64,000 nt of DNA, taken from assembly GCF_902459555.1 (NCBI RefSeq), contig NZ_CABPSM010000009.1:62001-126000 (forward strand), written 5' to 3'. Every line of letters starts with the position of its first letter. Positions within the stretch are counted from its first letter, which is position 1. Both the position numbers and the translations under genes were made by a program. Source of the stretch: Pandoraea horticolens. Lineage in GTDB: Bacteria > Pseudomonadota > Gammaproteobacteria > Burkholderiales > Burkholderiaceae. The notes under the pieces were generated by a model, which searched no databases, was not told where the DNA came from, and was given only the letters and a program-made list of their open reading frames with translations. Positions 16,159 to 25,696 of the stretch are shown here, piece by piece.

Positions 16159-16947
16159 ATGTACATCCCACTTCGCGAATATCAAACTGGCCCTGTGTCG
16201 GATGCGCAGCCCATCCACGTGCATCGGGCTTTCGACGAACCCGCAGGCGCAATCCCCCGATGCAGCACCTGCCTACTGCGCCAGTTCTGTCTGGCCGAGG
16301 GACTGTCCGACGAATCGGCGCGCCGTCTGGATGGCGTTACCCGCGTGCGCCGGACCATCCGCCGGGGGGAGGTGCTGTTTCGTCCCGGCGATGTGCTGGA
16401 GCACATATACGCTGTGCGTGCAGGTTCCTTCAAAACGGTTATTACGCATCCGGACGGCAAGGAGCAGGTCACCGGATACATGTTGGGCGGCGAGATTCTG
16501 GGGCTGAGCGCGATTGCGAACGGCAAGTACGTTTCGGAAGCGGTCGCGCTTGAAGACAGTCAGGTTTGCGCAATCAGGTTCTCCGAGCTGGAAAGCGTCG
16601 CCGCACAGTTCCCTGTCGTGCTGCACCAGTTGCACCGCCTGATCGCCGCGGGCATCGTGCGGGAGCAGAACCAGTTGATGCGCTTGGGCATCGCACGCGG
16701 CGAAGCACGGCTGGCCGGCTTCCTGCTCGACGTGTCGGCGCGTCTGGCGGCGCGGGGTTATTCTCCAAACGCGTTCCTGCTGCGCATGACGCGAGAAGAG
16801 ATCGGCAGTTTTCTGGGCCTGCAATTGGAAACGGTCAGCCGAATGCTCTCTCGTATGCAGGCGCAGAATACGCTGCGCGTCAAGCAACGCGAGATCACCC
16901 TGATCGACACCAAGCGCCTGAGCGATTTGGCGAGCGCGGCCCAGTAA
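16159..16947 (+). CDS. fnr: FNR-type oxygen-sensing transcriptional regulator
   Basis: A 262-residue Crp/Fnr protein with Cys35-x2-Cys38-x5-Cys44 near the N-terminus and Cys137. The spacing, including the 93-residue step from the third to the fourth cysteine, is the same as in E. coli FNR (20, 23, 29, 122), so an oxygen-labile [4Fe-4S] cluster is strongly suggested. The recognition helix 'LETVSRMLSRMQ' has the E--SR contacts that read TTGAT half-sites, and such sites are scattered across this island. It is followed 26 bp later by an alcohol dehydrogenase gene. The ortholog may be called fnr, anr or fixK-like in related genomes. Confidence 0.93.
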   Translation: MYIPLREYQTGPVSDAQPIHVHRAFDEPAGAIPRCSTCLLRQFCLAEGLSDESARRLDGVTRVRRTIRRGEVLFRPGDVLEHIYAVRAGSFKTVITHPDGKEQVTGYMLGGEILGLSAIANGKYVSEAVALEDSQVCAIRFSELESVAAQFPVVLHQLHRLIAAGIVREQNQLMRLGIARGEARLAGFLLDVSARLAARGYSPNAFLLRMTREEIGSFLGLQLETVSRMLSRMQAQNTLRVKQREITLIDTKRLSDLASAAQ

Positions 16948-22132: not shown

Positions 22133-23041
22133 TCAGAGAGGTTCCGGCAAGTTCTCCAGCAGATCGCGAACCGCGTCGGCCAAGGCCGGCGTGACGTCGA
22201 TGGCGTTCGAGGCGTGCGGCACGGTATTGCAGGTCAGCACCCGGCTGGCCCCGGCAGAGACAAGGTCATCGACGCTCACGCCTTCGAACAGGCCATGCAC
22301 GGCAATGCATACCGGATTGCCGAACCCGTGGTGAACGAGCGCGCCAATGGTGCCGAGCATGGTTTGCCCGCTCGACAGAATGTCGTCGACAATGACGGCT
22401 GTGCGTTTTGCATAGGCAGGGGGGACATGCAATTTGACGCTGACGCGCCGATCTGCCTCGCGGGTCTTGTGCGCCACGACGCACGGCGCACCGATACGTT
22501 CGGCGATCTGGGTGACCCACGCTTTGCTTTCGTCGTCCGGCCCTACGATCAGGGGATCTCGAACATTCTCTGAAATCCACTGGGCTGTGGCGACTACCCC
22601 ATGAGGGGACCGCACGGGAACGGAATACGCGGCCGAGAGCGAGGGAAGGCGATGCAGGTGCGGCTCCATCGTCACCAGGCCGTCGATATGGGCGCTGAGC
22701 AATCGGCCGAAACAATAGGCGGACACCGATTCGCCGGGGCGGAATCGAGCGTCCTGGCGCAAGTAGCACAGGTAGGGCGCGACGAGTATCACGTTGCTCG
22801 CCCCAAGGTCGCGGGCGGTGTCCGCCGCAAAAACAAGCGGCAGAATTTTTGCGTCCGGCCGATGAAGCGAACAGACGAGGACGACCGACTTTGCGCTGAG
22901 CGGCCCTTCGAGCGAGACGAGTTGTTCGCCGTCTGGGAAGTGGTGCACGCTAAGCCGTTGCAAAGGACTATCAATCGCATCGGCCAGCGATCGCGCCAAG
23001 AGTTCGTTTCCCGGTAACGGGTAGACGGCAACATCGTTCAT
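22133..23041 (-). CDS. prs: Ribose-phosphate pyrophosphokinase family protein
   Basis: A 302-residue type I phosphoribosyltransferase-fold protein of the PRPP-synthetase family: 'HHFPDGEQLVSLEGPL' (the F-P-D-G-E motif), 'APYLCYLRQDARFRPGE' (ATP-binding flexible region, Y-x-R-Q-D), and PRPP motif 'AVIVDDILSSGQTM'. It is divergent from housekeeping Prs (about 315 residues), so it is likely an accessory copy; some such paralogs act on other ribose phosphates. Its ATG overlaps the stop of the phosphorylase gene (ATGA), so the two act together. Confidence 0.85.
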   Translation of the reverse strand: MNDVAVYPLPGNELLARSLADAIDSPLQRLSVHHFPDGEQLVSLEGPLSAKSVVLVCSLHRPDAKILPLVFAADTARDLGASNVILVAPYLCYLRQDARFRPGESVSAYCFGRLLSAHIDGLVTMEPHLHRLPSLSAAYSVPVRSPHGVVATAQWISENVRDPLIVGPDDESKAWVTQIAERIGAPCVVAHKTREADRRVSVKLHVPPAYAKRTAVIVDDILSSGQTMLGTIGALVHHGFGNPVCIAVHGLFEGVSVDDLVSAGASRVLTCNTVPHASNAIDVTPALADAVRDLLENLPEPL

Positions 23042-24648
23042 GATTCCCCCACAGCGACGATTGCGGGAAAACGACAGGCGTACTCGTACGCGTAGTCGAG
23101 TTCTCCCTGACTTTCGGCATAAATGGTGAATAGGGGTTGGCCGGAAACCACTGGCTTTCCGATCGATACCTCGTAGACGACACCGGCCCGCGCCGCGGCC
23201 GGAGCGCCAGCCAGCTTGGCAACCCGAGCCAGGTGCCGGTTGTCCACGGCCATGACGACGCCGCCGTGGCGGGCGGTCACCGGCTTGCTATGCCGACCGG
23301 CCAGTGGCTCGCGCATCCCGCCCTGAGCTTCGCAGATTCGCTGAAACTGCTGCCAGGCGAGTCCGCTGGACACAACGGCGCGCGCACAGGTCTCCCCGTC
23401 GCCCGGGGGCACTTTCCCTCCCATCTCAAGCAGTCTTCCGGCGATTTCCACGCTCTTGTTCAATAGGTCGGCAGGCGCGTAGCTACGATTCTGCAGGACT
23501 GACAGGACATCGCGGGCTTCAAGACTGGGGCCAATGCCTCGCCCGACAGGCTGGTCTCCCTGACAGACGTAGGTGGAAATGTCGAGTCCGAGTGTATGGC
23601 CAATCGTTTGCAGGCGCTTGGAGAACAGTGCGCTGGCATATCGGGAGCGAATCTTGGCCGTCACGCCGACTGGGACGTCGATCAGCACGTGCGTCGAGCC
23701 TGCAGCCAGCTTCTTCGACAGAATGGAGGCCATCATCTGGGCCTCGCTGTCCAGGTCGAGCGGGCGCTCGACCTGAATCAGAGTATCGTCGGCAGGACTC
23801 AGGCCAGCCGCGCCACCGAAGACGACGCAACCGCCGACGGCATTCACAACCCTGCGCATGTCCTCCAGGCCGAGATCGACCGGCGCCATGGTTTCCATGG
23901 TATCGGCGGTCCCCGCTGGCGATGTGATCGCGCGTGACGATGTTTTCGGCATCACCAATCCTTGCGACGTCACGATGGCGACGACGATTGGCGTGGTTCG
24001 ATTTCCCGGCAGCCCGCCCACGCTGTGCTTATCGACAATGCACTCTGCCTGCCAGCGAAGCGTCTTGCCGGTGGCGACCATCGCACGCGTGAGCGAAATG
24101 ATCTCGTCGTCGGAAAGCCGGTTGCCCGTGCAGGTCGTCAAAAATGCGGAAATCTGGATGGGGGAATATCGGCCTGCCGCGATATCGGCCACTACCTCGT
24201 CTAGCGCGGCAGGGGTAAAGGCTTCGCCGAACATGCGTCCCCGCACGTGACGAAACGACTCGACCGGTGGCATGTGGCGTACCCGAACCCATTCCCCCTC
24301 CGCCACATCGAGGGCGAGCAGGGCGGCTTCGCTCAATCCGATCTCGTCGAGTTCCAGCCAATCCCCGGTCACCGTCTGAAGCGTTGCGACGACGACCACA
24401 TCGCCGTACTCGAGTTGAAGGCGCGTCTGTGCCGCGAACCCTTCGGAGCGGCAGATCTGGCTATCGCGTCGAAGATAGGCGACCGCTTCGCGCAGTGTGT
24501 CCACTTGCACCCTGTGCGCGCGCAATCGCCGCCCCGTTAGCGGAACCGGCGCGCTTTCTCCCATCGCCTGACCTGCGCGGCGCGGCACAGGCGAGCTTGC
24601 TGGACCCAAAGCCGCCGCTTGGGGTGATTTTTCGATGTCGTCCGACAC
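23038..24648 (-). CDS. AMP/thymidine phosphorylase family protein
   Basis: A 536-residue protein with an N-terminal extension of about 130 residues, then the glycosyltransferase-family-3 core. The segments 'DKHSVGGLPGNRTTPIVVAI' and 'KTSSRAITSPAGTADTMETMAP' match archaeal-type AMP phosphorylases better than E. coli DeoA. The likely reaction is phosphorolysis of a nucleotide or nucleoside to base plus ribose phosphate. GTG start at 24648 with AGGAG 7 bases upstream. Overlapping the PRPP-synthetase-family gene points to ribose-phosphate recycling that could feed tkt/tal. A 9/10 FNR box lies 128 bp upstream. Confidence 0.83.
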   Translation of the reverse strand: MSDDIEKSPQAAALGPASSPVPRRAGQAMGESAPVPLTGRRLRAHRVQVDTLREAVAYLRRDSQICRSEGFAAQTRLQLEYGDVVVVATLQTVTGDWLELDEIGLSEAALLALDVAEGEWVRVRHMPPVESFRHVRGRMFGEAFTPAALDEVVADIAAGRYSPIQISAFLTTCTGNRLSDDEIISLTRAMVATGKTLRWQAECIVDKHSVGGLPGNRTTPIVVAIVTSQGLVMPKTSSRAITSPAGTADTMETMAPVDLGLEDMRRVVNAVGGCVVFGGAAGLSPADDTLIQVERPLDLDSEAQMMASILSKKLAAGSTHVLIDVPVGVTAKIRSRYASALFSKRLQTIGHTLGLDISTYVCQGDQPVGRGIGPSLEARDVLSVLQNRSYAPADLLNKSVEIAGRLLEMGGKVPPGDGETCARAVVSSGLAWQQFQRICEAQGGMREPLAGRHSKPVTARHGGVVMAVDNRHLARVAKLAGAPAAARAGVVYEVSIGKPVVSGQPLFTIYAESQGELDYAYEYACRFPAIVAVGES

Positions 24649-24775
24649 TGTGCATCTCCTTTCGGGGGCGAGGAGGGCGTCTGTTGCGCGTGAGCGCCGA
24701 GGAAAATTCGAATATGCCCCCGCTTTAGAGCCTAATGCCGCTTCTTTCGCCGCGCGACGAGTGCCCTACGTGAGG

Positions 24776-24789
24776 TTGACGTGCATCAA
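24776..24789 (-). promoter_or_regulatory. FNR-type box upstream of the phosphorylase/prs operon
   Basis: TTGACGTGCATCAA, 9 of 10 matches to the FNR consensus, lies 128 bp upstream of the phosphorylase GTG. The best nearby minus-strand -10-like sequences (TCTAAA or CATTAG, about 24725-24737) sit a few bases from ideal activator spacing. Confidence 0.58.
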
Positions 24790-24836
24790 ACCGCACCTGC
24801 CGTCATGTCCTTTCGGTCGCGACACATTTTCGCGGC

Positions 24837-24884
24837 TTGAGGAATGTCAAGCCTGATCCTGTCGTGGCGCGCTATTGTTGAGAC
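24837..24884 (+). promoter_or_regulatory. FNR-type promoter driving a candidate small RNA
   Basis: TTGAGGAATGTCAA (24837-24850, 8 of 10) is centred exactly 41.5 bp upstream of an A at 24885, with TATTGT at 24873-24878 as -10. It faces away from the phosphorylase gene and back-to-back with the box at 24776. Confidence 0.6.
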
Positions 24885-25017
24885 ATTGTCGGCACTCACC
24901 TGCCGACGCTACGATCACCCGATGTTGCGCTTGTTCTGGCACTTGCGTCCGGAAACGGCCCCGTGAAGGATGTAAGCAAGTTGGGTTTTTTTGCCCGCTT
25001 TTGCGGGCATTCTTTTT
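24885..25017 (+). ncRNA. Candidate FNR-activated small RNA
   Basis: This is a non-coding stretch of about 133 nt bounded by a predicted FNR-type promoter and a strong intrinsic terminator. Three bases from the predicted 5' end there is a perfect stem-loop (GTCGGCA, 6-base loop, TGCCGAC; 24888-24907). A less structured middle and the terminator hairpin with U tract follow. No plus-strand gene lies upstream, and the next gene (25196) has its own FNR-like promoter after the terminator. This is the standard layout of a bacterial trans-acting small RNA. The alternative is an attenuated leader of the downstream phasin-like gene. Confidence 0.5.
24993..25017 (+). terminator. Rho-independent terminator
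   Basis: GCCCGC, TTTT loop, GCGGGC, then ATTCTTTTT on the plus strand: a textbook intrinsic terminator in a gap with no upstream plus-strand protein gene. A T run also precedes the stem. Confidence 0.85.
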
Positions 25018-25052
25018 GTGTCGCCCGCAGGTGGCAGCCGTGCGTGGCGATC

Positions 25053-25093
25053 TTGATGTGGGACAAACGGGGCGAGGCGGCTCCGGCTATGCT
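25053..25093 (+). promoter_or_regulatory. FNR-like promoter of the phasin-like gene
   Basis: TTGATGTGGGACAA (25053-25066, 8 of 10) precedes TATGCT (25088-25093), giving a centre at about -40.5. The same TATGCT -10-like sequence recurs at other promoters of the island. Confidence 0.5.
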
Positions 25094-25195
25094 GGACTTT
25101 GTAGCGCCTCGATTTTGCTTTCGTGGCGTTTCCGACTTTCGGTCGGACTCGGCGGTCACGATCCGGTGATCGCCCGCCATTCTGGAGACGCGATC

Positions 25196-25696
25196 ATGTC
25201 CAAAGACCCCAATCCCCCACTTGCCCTGTGTAAGGCGCAGTGGTTTGCGGTACTCGATGCCCACAGAAACTGGATGGAGAGTCTGCAATGCCTGCGCGAA
25301 ATGCAATTGAAGACCGACGAAGGCCTGCTCCATGCCGACAAGGAGTTCGCCAGCGCGATTGATAGCGCATCGGATTTCAGTGAGATGCTCAATAGTCAAC
25401 TCGCCTTTATCAACCGTCAGTTGGCGATGCAGAACCTCATATGGCAAGGACTGGTGCAGATGAGTGCGCGCATGCCGACGGCGTGGGCCGAACAGTACTA
25501 CTCGGCAGAAAAGGCATGGCAACGCGTTTTCTCCGACAGCGCGGCTGCGACCAGCGATACAGAGTGTCCCGCCAACGGATGGGCCGCTTGGGCCGATATC
25601 GCAAGATCGGCCATGCAATCGTTCAACGCTATGTCGACTGAGGACGGTCAAAGCGCTAAGCGGCGACTCACCCGTATCGCGGGAGCCAAGGGGTAA
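25196..25696 (+). CDS. Phasin-like (polyhydroxyalkanoate granule-associated) protein
   Basis: A 166-residue, almost wholly helical protein beginning MSKDPNPPLALCKAQWFAVL. It has long amphipathic helices ('SLQCLREMQLKTDEGLLHAD', 'SQLAFINRQLAMQNLIWQGL') and an aromatic-rich middle, resembling short phasin-like proteins found in the B. cenocepacia lxa locus. Phasins coat PHA granules; here the assignment is by general pattern, so it could instead be another helical stress protein. ATG at 25196 with GGAG 9 bases upstream; the long frame upstream overlaps the terminator and is not coding. Confidence 0.55.
   Translation: MSKDPNPPLALCKAQWFAVLDAHRNWMESLQCLREMQLKTDEGLLHADKEFASAIDSASDFSEMLNSQLAFINRQLAMQNLIWQGLVQMSARMPTAWAEQYYSAEKAWQRVFSDSAAATSDTECPANGWAAWADIARSAMQSFNAMSTEDGQSAKRRLTRIAGAKG

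Follow-up and report, generated by a model that had tools for sequence, protein, structure and literature searches.

The 64-kb stretch of Pandoraea DNA analysed here (the window) is likely to encode a small regulatory RNA (sRNA) of ~133 nt that would be FNR-activated, probably Hfq-assisted and trans-acting. Its promoter architecture, its conservation, the compensatory changes in its structure and its independence from the neighbouring gene are all apparent at the level of sequence. The sRNA gene sits inside a cluster of the low-oxygen-survival type and is small enough for clean deletion, and because its start is predicted and one of its loops is invariant, both its induction and its putative seed are directly testable.

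Locus and promoter architecture

The features of the locus are listed in Table 1. The sequence-only reading had proposed an FNR-type box centred at -41.5 from a TATTGT-defined start near 24885, a perfect stem-loop close to that start and an intrinsic terminator about 130 nt later. All promoter elements were recovered at the named positions, the 7-bp stem of the 5' hairpin was read directly from the letters, and the terminator stem was found together with its T-rich tail. Since both genes on the left-hand side lie on the minus strand, the plus-strand terminator is not needed by a close upstream gene.

Table 1. Features of the sRNA locus, of the window and of the short variant loci (window coordinates unless a locus is named).
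Feature	Position	Strand	Remarks
FNR cores in the window	14085, 20106, 24776, 24837, 25809, 29359, 29477, 33739, 44515		TTGA-N6-TCAA
FNR-family regulator, candidate activator	16159-16947	+	8 kb from the sRNA
Phosphorylase neighbour gene	22133-23041	-
Divergent thymidine/AMP phosphorylase-like gene	23038-24648	-	NCBIfam NF003338, 639.7 bits (cut-off 434)
Second FNR-type box, TTGACGTGCATCAA	24776-24789		Upstream of the sRNA box, 61 bp away
FNR-type box of the sRNA, TTGAGGAATGTCAA	24837-24850	+	Centre 24843.5, a class II position (-41.5 relative to the predicted start)
-10 element, TATTGT	24873-24878	+	22 nt 3' of the box
Predicted sRNA, ~133 nt	24885-25017	+	Start and end are predictions
5' hairpin	24888-24907	+	Perfect 7-bp stem GTCGGCA/TGCCGAC, 6-nt loop
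Conserved core, three-way junction	24918-24985	+	Closing helix CCCGAT (24918-24923) with GTTGGG (24980-24985)
Main hairpin, CTTGCGTCC/GGATGTAAG	24942-24976	+	Apical ACGGCCCCGT (24955-24964)
Intrinsic terminator, TGCCCGC-TTTT-GCGGGCA	24992-25009	+	Followed by a T-rich tract to 25017
FNR-like box (TTGATGTGGGACAA, a single mismatch in the core), 21 nt, TATGCT	25053-25093	+	Probably a promoter dedicated to the phasin-like gene
Phasin-like gene (weak label)	25196-25696	+	Pfam Phasin_2, E 0.61, 10.8 of 24.9 bits
Short variant, L081	6100-6226	-
Short variant, L082	5757-5883	+
Short variant, L083	7469-7595	-

The core TTGA-N6-TCAA of the sRNA box was kept in 11/11 syntenic genomes, which are exactly those with a phosphorylase at least 76% identical (the nearest, from Pandoraea communis, at 96%). 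A box at -41.5 of the predicted sRNA start was found in all 11 syntenic copies and was absent from a relocated copy in genome G022. The spacing from the box to the -10 element was exactly 22 nt, followed by TAnnGT, in each of the 11 copies, and three variant genomes had the same spacing, to TAnnCT. The sRNA box carries G at position 5 instead of the C or T of the usual TTGAT/C and is the sole one of the nine boxes in the window to fail the stricter pattern TTGAY-N4-RTCAA. The core of the second box was likewise kept in 11/11 syntenic genomes (identity 0.85). Because its distance to the sRNA box varies, however, this second box is no fixed part of the sRNA promoter, and it perhaps serves the divergent phosphorylase gene.

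Nine FNR cores were counted in the window, compared with an expectation of 0.55, and the window is therefore probably an FNR-regulated region. Between 23500 and 26500, one terminator-like site was found on the two strands together; as shuffles of this stretch contained 2.3 on average, the terminator alone is unremarkable. A sigma-70 promoter scan of the same interval gave no prediction; such a scan seeks a -35 hexamer, which is dispensable at an FNR-activated promoter. The complete architecture, defined as a box followed by TANNNT after 20-24 nt and by a terminator no more than ~330 nt away, was present in 1 of the 18 box orientations of the window (nine sites, both strands), whereas approximate dinucleotide shuffles gave an expectation of ~0.005 per 18 orientations, with one match in 3600 shuffled stretches. 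The combination of box, -10 element and terminator is thus beyond chance. The same scan over 95 sources (the window and loci L070-L163) gave 21 matches among 318 box orientations. In this count, which takes in both strands, seven genomes occur in duplicate; the distinct sites number 14, all within Pandoraea (11 main copies and 3 variant). In L077 and L090, the scan took an earlier hairpin as the terminator. No match was obtained in the 73 phosphorylase loci outside the close copies of the genus (L091-L163).

Distribution in Pandoraea and the family

A DNA search detected the sRNA in 11 of 32 Pandoraea genomes, its own included; a looser limit added short, chance-like matches. The 11 sequences were used to build the main covariance model R1, which at E values of up to 0.01 matched 15/32 genomes of the genus. 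Twelve of these matches were strong (at least 76.7 bits), and three genomes (G012, G023 and G029) had weak matches only, at 27-28 bits; a strong match was absent from 20/32 genomes. All strong copies except that of G022 adjoin the phosphorylase gene (11/12), and the order phosphorylase, sRNA, phasin-like gene was found in ten of the 12 (the window and nine of 11 further loci).

Among 249 sampled genomes of the family, 53 gave an R1 match at E values of up to 0.01, of which 12 were strong (76.7-148 bits). No strong relative was found outside Pandoraea in this sample, the remaining matches reaching at most 34.1 bits in a search whose filters lose some weak matches. The sequence-only reading had looked to conservation across the Burkholderiales, an expectation that did not hold, since all strong matches in the family came from Pandoraea. 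At 23 weak-match loci that were inspected, an FNR core lay within 110 bases in two, both from variant Pandoraea genomes. The best R1 match in L091-L163 was partial and scored 21.8 bits (L153). A comparison of positions 24600-25300 of the window with a plasmid collection gave no match.

RNA structure and sequence conservation

The single-sequence fold had a free energy of -52.9 kcal/mol (z -3.45), and 1/200 shuffles was as good. The consensus consists of the 5' hairpin, a closing helix formed by CCCGAU with GUUGGG, two hairpins within this helix, and the terminator. The covariance model matched the window at 24885-25019 with 131.6 bits, the window sequence being one of its building sequences.

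The sequence-only reading had named a lack of stem conservation in relatives as a point against an sRNA; in an alignment of 12 sequences the stems were conserved. Paired cells made up 97.0% of the alignment, compared with 94.8% in shuffles (0/500 as high), 5 pairs were changed on both sides (2.4 in shuffles; 2/500 as high) and 12 cells were changed on both sides (4.2 in shuffles; 0/500); these figures are not probabilities, because the alignment was fitted to the covariance model and leans towards its structure and because the species are related. When one side of a helix was slid by 1-3 columns, pairing fell to 32-43%. One of the five covariation measures, the number of further pair types, gave no excess (15 versus 15.5 in shuffles; 472/500). 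Compensatory changes are thus present in the aligned structure. As the closing helix and the terminator hardly vary, covariation rests on helix 1 (the 5' hairpin; 4 pairs counted, of which 2 changed on both sides, with 95.7% of its cells paired) and helix 4 (the main hairpin; 9 pairs, 3 changed on both sides). Helices 5 and 6 are invariant and helix 2 nearly so, which leaves covariation neutral on them, and the 6 counted stem pairs of the terminator did not change in the 12 sequences. The apical ACGGCCCCGT was identical in 12/12 sequences, as were CCCGAT and TTGGG, which explains why the closing helix is almost without covariation.

In mean pairwise identity, the box (0.94), the terminator stem (0.86), the core (0.80) and the -10 element (0.79) ranked above the 5' hairpin (0.59), and other neighbouring non-coding stretches had values of 0.41-0.53.

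Short variant and relocated copy

A short FNR-type candidate RNA of ~84 nt was found in 3/3 Pandoraea genomes with a diverged cluster (G023, G029 and G025), whose phosphorylases are 52-54% identical. Its layout comprises an FNR core and, after 22 nt, TATGCT or TATCCT, followed by a long hairpin whose apical region contains CGCCCCG, and a terminator. R1 recovered the three variant loci at 25-28 bits. Conversely, a variant model (R2) built from the three variant sequences matched the main sRNA locus in 7/11 syntenic genomes at 32-36 bits when run on the 249 genomes at E values of up to 0.001, and in the locus set it matched all 12 strong copies at weaker scores (the weakest, L079, at E 0.34); a near-identical terminator contributes part of every one of these cross-match scores. 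R2 also matched six genomes of other genera at 32-37 bits, level with the main sRNA; none of the four of these loci that were inspected had an FNR core upstream. The R2 match in G017 did not lie at the sRNA position of that genome. Because promoter, loop and gene neighbourhood are shared, the main and short forms are likely to be homologous, though this is unproved.

The copy in G022 (L080 7657-7807, minus strand) is diverged and shares 0/8 tested genes with the window. Upstream of the match lie a phosphoketolase gene and then an acetate kinase gene, with 20 nt between the latter and the start of the match. Although outside the building set of the model, this copy, folded on its own, adopts the three-way junction of the main form (z -2.38; 3/200 shuffles as good), with a main stem that is largely different. 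Even with one mismatch allowed, the stretch scanned contained no FNR core, so FNR control of the RNA is not universal. Judging from its position, the G022 copy could be part of the 3' end of the phosphoketolase-acetate kinase mRNA or a 3' end-derived sRNA. The same locus carries an Rfam P9 match on the minus strand (L080 2673-2757), at 43.1 bits against a gathering score of 43.

It is conceivable, and put forward here tentatively, that these forms make up a new sRNA family, seen to date only in Pandoraea, which serves an FNR-controlled cluster for low-oxygen survival as its RNA arm. The C-rich apical loop would be the fixed functional part, and the rest would have been rebuilt around it in evolution, as a three-way junction in most species, as a single long hairpin of ~84 nt in the sister group and, behind the fermentative phosphoketolase-acetate kinase pair of G022, as the relocated copy, which would have lost its FNR box and maybe derives from the 3' end of the mRNA of this pair.

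Alternative explanations

The RNA might instead belong to a 5' leader that attenuates the phasin-like gene, with transcription started by FNR and a terminator that is passed conditionally; the short RNA would then be a by-product of cis control. The phasin-like gene indeed lies downstream on the same strand in 10/12 genomes. In L074, L077 and L078, moreover, the T tract and the gene start are ~50 nt apart and the gene lacks an FNR-like promoter of its own, which makes read-through plausible there. However, in 8/11 syntenic genomes another FNR-like promoter, with a single mismatch in its core and TAnnnT after 21 nt, lies beyond the terminator, a count made without a shuffle control. In G017 (L079), where the gene-order comparison gave no phasin match, a phasin-like remnant with early stop codons lies on the sRNA strand ~235 bases past the apical loop, whereas neither the RNA nor either of the two promoters beside it has decayed. 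The next downstream ORF of at least 200 codons in G022 is on the opposite strand, and in the three variant genomes the RNA is close to the phasin-like gene and points towards it, the two being convergent. Transcription continuing into this gene, which the sequence-only reading had named as a point against an sRNA, may therefore occur, above all in L074, L077 and L078, but is not the main purpose of the RNA. Since the gene has a likely FNR-like promoter of its own in most syntenic genomes and is a remnant in G017, where the RNA persists, the RNA is, as far as the comparison of genomes goes, not merely a leader, and we regard cis control of the phasin-like gene as unlikely. In G028 (C12:71608-72090), the phasin-like match contains two stop codons; either the gene is decaying or the match overruns its end.

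The RNA could also act by binding a protein, as an FNR-driven sponge for a regulator, instead of by pairing with mRNAs. The strongly conserved fold, with its invariant stretches in the closing helix and the loop, fits this explanation, as does the outcome of the searches for pairing targets by loop complement and at neighbouring gene starts, which found none. A CsrA sponge is expected to carry a GGA motif, whereas GGA is not conserved before the loop (CGGAAACGG, CGGATACGG, CGTATACGG, CGAATACGG or GGTAACGG), and no protein other than CsrA is implied; protein binding thus appears a decidedly poor prospect. That the box solely serves the divergent phosphorylase gene, with hairpin and terminator incidental, is suggested by the near-palindromic nature of FNR boxes and by the second box 61 bp off, and the sRNA box may have an additional role at a divergent promoter. 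As the sole function, this is highly improbable in view of the 22-nt spacing to a plus-strand -10 element, fixed in 14/14 distinct sites, and of the conserved, covarying RNA behind the box. There is, finally, next to no likelihood that the stretch encodes a small protein. A 14-codon ATG frame is present at 24922 in the window, but its start codon, frame and stop vary by species, no purine-rich ribosome-binding site precedes it, and the changes follow the stems. The lack of a protein gene within the RNA, as originally claimed, was upheld: a mechanical TTG ORF spans 24875-25696, but no frame is conserved across relatives, and a small protein was rejected on this ground.

Candidate regulator, proposed mechanism and target searches

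The FNR-family regulator encoded in the window has cysteines (Cys35, 38, 44 and 137) that align with those of a solved FNR structure (PDB 9qmc, E 2.6e-47), and its DNA-binding helix reads ETVSR where the solved protein has ETISR. Against NF008365 (FNR proper), it scored 196.3 of 228 bits and thus stayed below the cut-off. Hfq is encoded in the same genome.

For the sRNA, the following course of events is proposed. Upon exhaustion of oxygen, an FNR-family protein carrying an iron-sulphur cluster would bind the box at -41.5 and recruit RNA polymerase, with transcription beginning near 24885 and ending at the intrinsic terminator near 25017. The transcript would fold into the 5' hairpin, a three-way junction that displays the invariant C-rich apical loop ACGGCCCCGU, and the U-tailed terminator hairpin. 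Together with Hfq, the C-rich loop would then pair with G-rich ribosome-binding regions of mRNAs that are unneeded without oxygen, leading to their repression. Such action is suggested because E. coli FnrS represses mRNAs of this kind and likewise has its FNR site at -41.5. With FnrS as the model, expression, FNR dependence, use of Hfq, a seed role for the loop and the repression of aerobic genes are inferred.

Sites matching the 10-base complement of the loop numbered 27 in the genome, including the sRNA gene itself; the reversed control pattern gave 56. No convincing target emerged among the 27 sites: 17 lie near an ATG or GTG by a loose rule, and most of these codons belong to frames nested in longer frames or running opposite to them. 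Four sites were read by eye. At the starts of eight neighbouring genes, compared in up to 11 genomes, pairing was no better than with shuffled RNA (lowest mean z -0.53, lowest single value -1.7; folding within each RNA was ignored).

Relation to known RNAs and low-oxygen systems

To our knowledge, few oxygen-controlled sRNAs have been described in the Burkholderiales. Rfam 15 gave no match at gathering score over the whole window. Three families with sub-threshold matches were rejected: anti-hemB (RF02837; 16.2 bits against 49.5, over 24915-25017), RyhB (RF00057; 24.5 against 55, from 24972 and mainly in the terminator) and ncS54 (RF02871; 13.2 against 43, at the terminator end from 24966).

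The FNR site of E. coli fnrS is of class II and lies at -41.5 (PMC3032703), and FnrS is a small RNA of the FNR regulon that represses genes dispensable in anaerobiosis, a pulse repressing more than 30 mRNAs, including those for aerobic respiration and central metabolism (PMC8139620). The Pandoraea RNA is like enterobacterial FnrS in the position of the class II site, here relative to a predicted start (PMC3032703), but differs in gene context and belongs to no Rfam family at gathering score. It is best read, by analogy, as a functional counterpart of FnrS and not as a demonstrated homologue.

Among the Betaproteobacteria, meningococcal AniS is an FNR-activated sRNA. Gonococcal FnrS, also from a betaproteobacterium, is described as having a predicted class II FNR site, an intrinsic terminator and anaerobic induction (PMC3032703). 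The first two of these features recur in the Pandoraea RNA, which is thus likened to gonococcal FnrS and AniS by description and not by sequence, whereas the gene context differs. PaiI of Pseudomonas aeruginosa is similar in size (126 nt) and anaerobically induced, but requires nitrate and NarXL, the effect of ANR being most likely indirect (PMC8139620).

No FNR-controlled sRNA of Pandoraea was found among the literature matches listed, most subscription papers lying outside reach, and the word sRNA did not occur in the low-oxygen papers PMC9104464 and PMC9733578; the primary lxa paper lay outside this comparison. Within the literature and Rfam as searched, the RNA is accordingly new but of a functional kind already known. 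For the iron-controlled sRNA BrrF, conservation in Pandoraea has been reported (PMC7377471).

The region around the sRNA includes several universal stress proteins, an Acg-family oxidoreductase and the FNR-family regulator and is probably a low-oxygen gene cluster. Several universal stress proteins are also encoded by the lxa locus of Burkholderia cenocepacia, which the window presumably resembles in further respects. The lxa locus is described as a low-oxygen locus of 50 genes that encodes six such proteins (PMC9733578).
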